A DNA stretch of 39,925 nt, taken from positions 76,181-116,105 of the forward strand of contig PCXA01000010.1 in NCBI GenBank assembly GCA_002796325.1. The letters are read 5' to 3'. Origin of the DNA: Deltaproteobacteria bacterium CG11_big_fil_rev_8_21_14_0_20_47_16. Lineage in GTDB: Bacteria; UBA10199; GCA-002796325; 1-14-0-20-47-16. Position 1 is the stretch's first letter; each line of letters begins with the position of its first letter. Made by a program: the position numbers and the translations under genes. The notes under the pieces were generated by a model. The model made no database searches. It worked only from the letters and a program-made list of their open reading frames with translations, and had not been told where the DNA came from. Shown in pieces: positions 26,933-28,620 of this stretch.

Positions 26933-27363
26933 TCCTTCTTGTCCTCTCCACCACCACTACCGGATGAAACAATGACCACTTCGCGACGTTGTTCGCGCAA
27001 ATCGCAGTCCAGCAAAATGACATCTTCATAGGGGGCCAATGCTACCTCGCCAGCAACCACTGGAAGGCTCAGCGCACGCGGCAACAGGGCAGTCTGTAAT
27101 CGTGGCGCCAATTCCACTTCACGATTGAGACGATCCTTTAGTTTGCCCTCTTTGCTGAATTGCGCCAAATAATTGGTAATGGCTTTGCGAACTTCGGGTA
27201 GATTTTCAAAAACCAACAGTGCTGCCCCACTTTTTGGAACTGCAATGTGCACAGCACCATCCACTACACCGGCATCCCGAATTGCAGCTGTGATATCGTG
27301 ATTGAGTGGAATAAAATCGATAGCGGCTGTTGTAACAACATACACCTTTTTAACATGCGACAT
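26929..27363 (-). CDS. YjbQ/UPF0047-fold protein lacking the conserved histidines
   Basis: The 144-residue protein aligns with YjbQ (UPF0047) throughout: an opening VTTAAIDFIPLNHDITAAIR, GAVHIAVPKSGAALLVFEN and a C-terminal LPVVAGEVALAPYEDVILLD. In typical members the strand is VPHTT...N and the second site is HLKAS with ALGTWQ; here the PHT histidine is Lys and the AHLKAS histidine is Pro. Whatever enzymatic activity the family has (thiamine-phosphate synthase in some members) is probably lost. I start at 27363, which has GGGAG seven bases upstream; an ATG at 27387 lacks a ribosome binding site. It ends inside the start of the 7TM-HD gene, at the position where phoH is common, so a partner role is possible. 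Confidence 0.65.
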   Translation of the reverse strand: MSHVKKVYVVTTAAIDFIPLNHDITAAIRDAGVVDGAVHIAVPKSGAALLVFENLPEVRKAITNYLAQFSKEGKLKDRLNREVELAPRLQTALLPRALSLPVVAGEVALAPYEDVILLDCDLREQRREVVIVSSGSGGGEDKKE

Positions 27364-27404: not shown

Positions 27405-27805
27405 CATAAAATTGCTTATACGTCGTTCATTCAGTTCAACACACGCCATCGTTCGGCGACCAAACCCCAGCAGGCGTATGGCGCCTACCGCTGGCGCGCG
27501 CTGATACTTCACTCATGTGCGGCGCATTGAACGAATGGTATACCTACACAATGCCGCGGAGACCTACGCTATGCTGAGTATCAAGGCGCGTTTATGAGCG
27601 TAGTCGTATGACGATGGCAAAAATGCCATTGGCCACCGAGCTTGAAGGCCGACAAGCAGGAGGACATTCAAGCTCGTTTTATGGTCAAGACATTTTTGTC
27701 GAGTCATGACGGAGCGATTGCGCCACTCAGCATAGCGTAGGGTCGGAGAGGCATTGTGTGGGTATCGTGAGTGAAACTTAGGAACAGCGTATAAGCAATT
27801 CTATG
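27405..27805. repeat. Nested inverted-repeat element (MITE-like or structured RNA)
   Basis: Terminal inverted repeats of 18 bp with one mismatch bound the element: CATAAAATTGCTTATACG (27405-27422) and CGTATAAGCAATTCTATG (27788-27805). Inside are further paired arms: ATACCTACACAATGCC (27540-27555) with 27750-27765, CTACGCTATGCTGAGT (27564-27579) with its exact complement at 27725-27740, an imperfect stem around GGCAAAAATGCC (27616-27627), and a central hairpin CGAGCTTGAA (27637-27646) with TTCAAGCTCG (27667-27676). A side hairpin occupies 27428-27537. No ORF is visible. It fills the gap between divergent genes, leaving 41 bp on each side. No clear target duplication is seen. Confidence 0.75.
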
Positions 27806-27846: not shown

Positions 27847-28620
27847 ATGACGACAAACACTGCAGGTGAGGCCTTTCAAAAGTTAGTGGATATTATTGCA
27901 CAACTGCGTGCGCCCAATGGTTGCCCATGGGACCGCGAACAAACACCCCAATCTGCTGCACAATATATAATAGAAGAAGCCTTCGAATCGGTTGAAGCAA
28001 TCGAGTTTGGTGATACCAAAAATATTTGCGAAGAATTGGGTGATTTACTGATGCAGCCGGTCTTTCAAGCGCAAATGATTGCAGATACGTCCGCGCAATT
28101 CACGATTACCGACGTCATTAATGCGATTACTCAAAAGCTACTGGTTCGCCACCCCCACGTATTTGGTGAAACCAAAGTGGCCGATAGCACCGAAGTCTTG
28201 GCCAATTGGGAAAAGATCAAGGCCGATGAAAAGCCAAAGCGCGAATCCATGCTGGAAGGCTTGCCCAAGGGCTTGCCCGCCCTCCTCAAGGCCTATCGCA
28301 TTGGTGAAAAAGTTTCGCGCGTGGGTTTTGATTGGAAAACAACCGATGGCGTATTGAATAAAATTGAAGAAGAGGCCAAAGAATTACATCAGGCCAAAAC
28401 ACCCCATGAGATCGAAGACGAATTGGGCGATTTATTGTTTACACTGGCCAACTTAGCGCGCCATTTGAAAGTAGACCCTGAAGCGGCACTCCGCAAGGCC
28501 TCCGACAAATTTTCCAAACGCTTTCAATGGATGGAAACGCAGTGCAAACAAAAAGGCACCCCACTCCAGTCGTTAACCGACGCAGAATGGGATGCCTTGT
28601 GGAATCAGTCTAAAAAATAA
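27847..28620 (+). CDS. mazG: Nucleoside triphosphate pyrophosphohydrolase MazG
   Basis: MazG hydrolyses (d)NTPs to monophosphates and pyrophosphate, cleaning the nucleotide pool and damping (p)ppGpp signalling. The 257-residue protein shows the tandem layout: first domain with GCPWDREQTPQSAAQYIIEE and EELGDLL, second with EEEAKEL and EDELGDLLFTLANLARHL. The EEXX(E/D) metal-binding helices are intact. I start at the ATG at 27847; an in-frame TTG at 27811 would add 12 residues. Only 41 bp separate it from the inverted-repeat element, so its promoter may be influenced by, or lie in, that element. Its stop abuts the rpsT stop with no gap. Confidence 0.94.
   Translation: MTTNTAGEAFQKLVDIIAQLRAPNGCPWDREQTPQSAAQYIIEEAFESVEAIEFGDTKNICEELGDLLMQPVFQAQMIADTSAQFTITDVINAITQKLLVRHPHVFGETKVADSTEVLANWEKIKADEKPKRESMLEGLPKGLPALLKAYRIGEKVSRVGFDWKTTDGVLNKIEEEAKELHQAKTPHEIEDELGDLLFTLANLARHLKVDPEAALRKASDKFSKRFQWMETQCKQKGTPLQSLTDAEWDALWNQSKK

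Follow-up and report, generated by a model that had tools for sequence, protein, structure and literature searches.

Bacterial palindromic repeats are usually read as MITEs, by their ends, or as structured RNAs, by covariation. Which of these readings fits the 401-bp non-coding nested palindrome found at positions 27405-27805 of the window, the whole stretch of 39,925 nucleotides analysed here? The palindrome lies between two divergent genes, a UPF0047/YjbQ-like gene on the minus strand and mazG on the plus strand. An earlier note had delimited the element and its nested arms, and had described it as devoid of coding potential and able to fold on itself over nearly its whole length. These points were borne out. 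A repeat search recovered the terminal, middle and inner arms as well as the central hairpin (Table 1), and no gene was found inside. The fold energy lay 10 to 13 standard deviations beyond that of shuffled sequence, whether the element was folded as DNA (-108.1 kcal/mol as compared to -59.7 +/- 4.7 for shuffles; z -10.4) or as RNA of either strand (-193.2 and -185.9 as compared to about -123 and about -118; z -12.0). The distance of 41 bp to each gene holds if the YjbQ-like gene starts at 27363 and mazG at 27847, but the longest open frames start nearer. The proposal that the element may carry promoters for mazG and for the YjbQ-like operon, with TATAAG as a -10 box, found no support: one promoter-like match was found as compared to 0.9 expected, not at the proposed TATAAG, and CGTATAA merely belongs to the terminal repeat that other copies of the same genome also have. 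A regulatory role at the mazG/YjbQ-like site is conceivable. As described below, the window element belongs to a family of non-coding, probably mobile hairpins, hitherto without a name, that occurs in a class of uncultured bacteria.

Table 1. Features of the window element, in window positions
Feature	Position	Strand	Observation
Left terminal inverted repeat (CATAAAATTGCTTATACGTCGTTC)	27405..27428		24 nt, 88% complementary to 27782-27805
Orphan arm of probably lost second core (CGACCAAACCCCAGCAGGCGTATGGCGC)	27457..27484		In L025, belongs to head-to-head second core; side hairpin region of the earlier note
TGGCGC, probable deletion scar of second core	27479..27484		In L025, TGGCGC on both sides of 160 extra bp
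Left middle arm	27540..27564		80% complementary to 27741-27765; common to core-less L027; swapped as matching arm pair in L023-L026
Left inner arm adjoining core	27563..27579		17/17 with 27725-27741; differences among own-genome (G000) copies mirrored in right arm
Conserved core hairpin, about 140 nt, class-wide family	27583..27724	+	Covariance model R2, 119.3 bits, E 5e-32, the window copy itself being part of the alignment that built the model
Conserved left internal loop	27591..27615	+	Family consensus GAGCG.AG.CGTATGAGGAG
Central hairpin	27637-27646/27667-27676		10/10 complementary (repeat search)
Conserved apical loop	27647..27666	+	Family consensus GGCTGACA.GAGGAAGAC
Conserved right internal loop	27699..27718	+	Family consensus CGACGAATAGCGGAGGGA
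Right inner arm adjoining core	27725..27741		17/17 with 27563-27579
Right middle arm	27741..27765		80% complementary to 27540-27564
Right terminal inverted repeat	27782..27805		88% complementary to 27405-27428; also seen in own-genome copies

The genome that carries the window element (1.95 Mb, 20 contigs) contains it repeatedly. The search for dispersed copies suggested in the earlier note gave 21 BLAST matches, some of them being one copy's palindrome matching itself on the opposite strand. A covariance model of the core detected ten cores, all dispersed. Overall, the genome holds about ten copies plus fragments, not a single copy. Side-by-side reading showed that these copies are modular, with terminal repeats, a middle arm pair, an inner arm pair and a core, and that they vary in the modules they hold. 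L030 consists of the ends only (about 88 bp), L027 has ends and middle arms without a core, and L025 has two cores. The end of the window element recurs in L023, L025, L027, L030 and L031 with inner bases that are different yet match each other. In L027, one spacer segment is inverted relative to the window copy. In this genome, fragments of the element are also joined to another palindromic repeat (GTGCGGGACGGGTCCTGC ... GGGAACCTCCGGGCGTCACCC; L031 1000-1200, L034 324-550, L028 900-990), which may break the assembly, given its location close to contig ends in L031 and L034.

The core defines a wider family. The covariance model, built on an alignment of ten cores from three genomes, detected it in 15 of the 46 class genomes; across the class, copy number varies from 0 to 17 per genome. 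A wider search covered 385 genomes, the majority of which lie outside the class. It gave 13 positives, all class members, and none in about 340 genomes outside. As this search applied stricter filters and scored few candidates per genome, weakly matching members beyond the class may have escaped it. When a degenerate core pattern was run against 84,980 species genomes, 15 matches were obtained. Only two were real, both in the isolate SKS1.bin41; the others had no complementary 3′ half and resembled coding DNA. No core match was seen in viral contigs, searched with two patterns, or in plasmids and phages. The statement that no named family matches also stands. No Rfam family scored above its gathering cut-off, and the candidates that came up (plant or animal microRNA, STnc380, BjrC68), all below their gathering scores, were judged to be chance matches.

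The consensus hairpin of the ten-core alignment has 43 pairs, 22 of which show compensatory changes. In a set of 36 representative copies, conservation is highest at positions that are for the most part unpaired, in the left internal, apical and right internal loops, together with the AAAAAT/ATTTTT base of the stem. The terminal stem of the core is free to vary but remains paired. Conserved loops combined with a variable but paired stem suggest a trans-acting factor that would read the folded strand.

The outer arms are related among the copies of the window's genome; between genomes they are unrelated and mostly private. To quantify this, the left flank of each of 62 copies was scored against the right flank of its own copy and of all others. 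The median score was 26 within a copy, 9 with other copies of the same genome and 7 with other genomes, and the pairing of a copy with its own arm was unbeaten by any other partner in 51 of the 62 copies. Genome G015, with 17 copies of a nearly identical core, allowed changes to be followed in each arm. There, mean identity is 91% for cores and 77-79% for arms. Deviations of the arms from consensus, counted in 14 copies, were mirrored in 46 cases as compared to 15 one-sided cases, while after shuffling of the arms among copies the mirrored cases averaged 13 and never exceeded 36. A one-base difference in the length of a C run separates the sister copies L288 and L304 and is present in both arms of each. 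Between very recent or close copies in other genomes the differences are mostly one-sided, showing that arm correction is not instantaneous. Template switching has been reported to create hairpins and to maintain or mend them (PMC8794818). The mirrored changes, together with the rapid turnover of the arms, suggest that template switching during replication contributes; compensatory selection on the folded strand could account for part of the mirrored changes. In G015, the core at L301 1-240, near a contig start, has a left arm matching L293 and a right arm resembling L300, and is either a natural recombinant or an assembly chimera.

Evidence for insertion was obtained at two loci, where gene names were read by eye from translations. 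Copy L129 (genome G019) lies between murG and murC, which nearly touch each other, with no element, in three relatives of other genera. Copy L151 (genome G020) lies between acyl-CoA dehydrogenase and carboxylase genes, and the corresponding junction of G030 is bare. Empty sites, which the earlier note had proposed to look for, were thus found for two other family copies but not for the window site, where gene order is insufficiently conserved to give a clean ortholog without the element. No exact empty site was found for any copy of the window's genome, and no target-site duplication was obvious by eye at the ends of those copies that were read side by side. Overall, the dispersed copies, the terminal repeats common to several of them and the two element-less orthologous loci agree with a non-autonomous MITE-like element, as had been proposed. 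Another multi-copy repeat adjoins the core element in G019 (L129 2280-2385); it occurs in many places in G007, G014, G024 and G034, including G007 where the core was not found.

A Y1 transposase was considered as a partner. Such enzymes are present in 38 of the 46 class genomes. Searching 32 Y1 loci with the covariance model revealed no core beside the gene; the two matches obtained were both known copies, about 2 and about 5 kb away. This candidate was discarded as too common to correlate and never adjacent to a core.

Most copies are single cores. However, head-to-head pairs with 90-108 bp between the 5′ ends were observed in five genera (L025, L113, L121, L130, L135), and no tail-to-tail pair was seen so close together. 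The ancestral or active unit probably comprised a head-to-head pair of cores separated by about 100 bp. In L025, the second core is within 160 extra bases flanked by TGGCGC, at the position of the window copy's orphan arm. As compared to this sister copy, the window element has neither the second core nor the arm opposite 27457-27484. The simplest reading of this alignment is that the window copy probably lost its second core by slippage between the TGGCGC repeats; alternatively, L025 gained its second core by an insertion that duplicated TGGCGC. The window copy is probably immobile now. Two other arrangements of cores were noted. In G029, the apical part of a core holds a further inserted hairpin (L113 890-1085), another case of nesting. 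In G009, apparent HigB/HigA toxin-antitoxin genes, assigned by eye from sequence, lie between two cores in inverted orientation at a distance of about 1 kb from each other (L147 975-2243).

From these data, we think it probable, with some reservation, that the window copy belongs to a class-wide family of non-autonomous mobile palindromic elements, the core of which is recognised in trans as a folded strand while the arms are homogenised by template switching. The core of about 140 nt with its conserved loops would define what moves. A putative trans-acting recombinase or nuclease would probably recognise it as a folded single strand, consistent with the conservation of the loops. The outer arms would be carried along with the core. 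Both arms would be rewritten jointly as the hairpin replicates, template switching being the most likely means, and each copy would thus end with private, self-matching arms. The window copy would derive from a two-core unit by loss of one core between TGGCGC repeats.

A rival reading is a structured non-coding RNA or an mRNA-processing hairpin that would be made from the core-sense strand and maintained because it serves the cell; the conservation of the loops and the compensatory changes in the stems speak for it. Strand-specific mismatches bear on this point. The earlier note had observed that several differences between arms would still pair as G-U if transcribed from the plus strand. Over 84 copies, the long stems of the core contained 2144 Watson-Crick cells, 14 G-T and 20 A-C (34 transition mismatches in all, and 63 others). 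These stems therefore show no G-T excess, whereas tRNAs of the same class, used as a control, gave 33 G-T and no A-C for 1058 Watson-Crick cells. In the outer arms, however, G-T mismatches outnumbered A-C (80 versus 31, with 2445 Watson-Crick), and did so in all 11 informative genomes, i.e. those neither tied nor empty. The proposed G-U pairing thus holds for the outer arms family-wide and not for the core stems, and a reading of the stems as free of any G-U signature was dropped on the outer-arm counts. Judging from this excess, the strand that folds seems to be the core-sense one, in the arms at any rate, which is compatible with single-stranded DNA as well as with RNA. Selection on a transcribed hairpin would also account for the excess. 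In a rough open-frame census, copies were commoner between convergent (13) or tandem (24) genes than between divergent ones (5), as a transcribed hairpin might be; yet the window copy itself sits between divergent genes. The variable copy number across the class, the two compared loci not being common to relatives and the lack of an Rfam match also argue against a cellular RNA, which we consider unlikely.

Equally unlikely, in our opinion, is that the core inserts into the loops of pre-existing palindromes, the private arms being the target and not part of the element. REP palindromes are known to serve as targets of some insertion sequences (PMC1525189). At the junction where G020 has its core, G025 and G015 carry different palindromes, and in G025 the outermost arm is related. 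Such nesting points either to palindromes being inserted into or to their central parts being replaced. Cores also nest inside arms in L025, and the core-less L027 resembles the window element minus its core. L027 can however be explained as well by deletion between short GCG repeats. Moreover, the arms of dispersed copies are related within several genomes, indicating that arms travel with the core. A further reading, a new kind of single-stranded mobile element of which only the folded core would be recognised and moved, its stem being rewritten at each insertion from the target or by hairpin-primed copying so that each copy has its own stem, appears quite improbable to us. Finally, an ordinary MITE made of the degenerate ends of a known insertion-sequence family is very doubtful. 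Terminal inverted repeats, a size near 400 bp, intergenic location and internally deleted versions such as L030 would suit it. In a MITE, however, the ends are the transposase sites, whereas here the ends vary from genome to genome and it is the centre that is conserved; in addition, no target duplication was seen by eye and no parent element was met.

The preferred reading, a mobile palindrome acted upon in trans, can be compared with known systems. REPs and REPINs are recognised by a palindrome of 20-40 nt with a GTAG or CGTC tag and by a copy adjoining a RAYT (Y1) gene, and REPINs are mobilised by RAYT transposases. REPINs are REP doublets, in which conserved blocks form inverted pairs about 70-110 bp apart around a less conserved spacer with compensatory changes (PMC3116915). 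Our element resembles them in being non-coding and intergenic, with conserved blocks in inverted pairs (the five pairs described above). Unlike REPINs, its unit is a 140-nt hairpin with other conserved loops instead of a short tagged palindrome, its copies number about 1-17 per genome and are mostly single cores, and none of the Y1 loci examined had a core at its side. Prokaryotic MITEs include QMITE2, Chunjie and the Correia elements. With regard to the definition of prokaryotic MITEs (PMC10969869), the element is similar in its size below 500 bp, its lack of coding capacity, its terminal inverted repeats within the own genome, its dispersion and its internally deleted copies. It differs from them by a conserved centre with ends private to copies or genomes, by the absence of a target duplication visible by eye, and by a parent insertion sequence not having been met. 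As in template-switched quasipalindromes (PMC8794818, PMC8604942), the arms homogenise, with mirrored changes, one mirrored length difference and the inverted spacer segment of L027; unlike these, it is a dispersed family with a conserved centre and not a lone hairpin. Because the unit lacks the size and tag of REPs as well as a transposase neighbourhood, and because it has the size of a MITE while the other marks of MITEs are not clearly present, we would class the family among the palindromic mobile repeats of bacteria and take REPINs as its nearest working analogue.

A conserved centre, private ends and mirrored changes that accumulate faster than changes in the core make this family a natural test bed for template switching in long hairpins. 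It also serves as a warning that covariation by itself is no proof of RNA. In addition, the core offers a concrete recognition motif with which to seek the mobilising enzyme in this uncultured class. Palindromes of another type were also noted: short, high-copy REP-like palindromes, separate from the core family, occur at L091 1176-1202 and 1241-1269 and in many places in G042.
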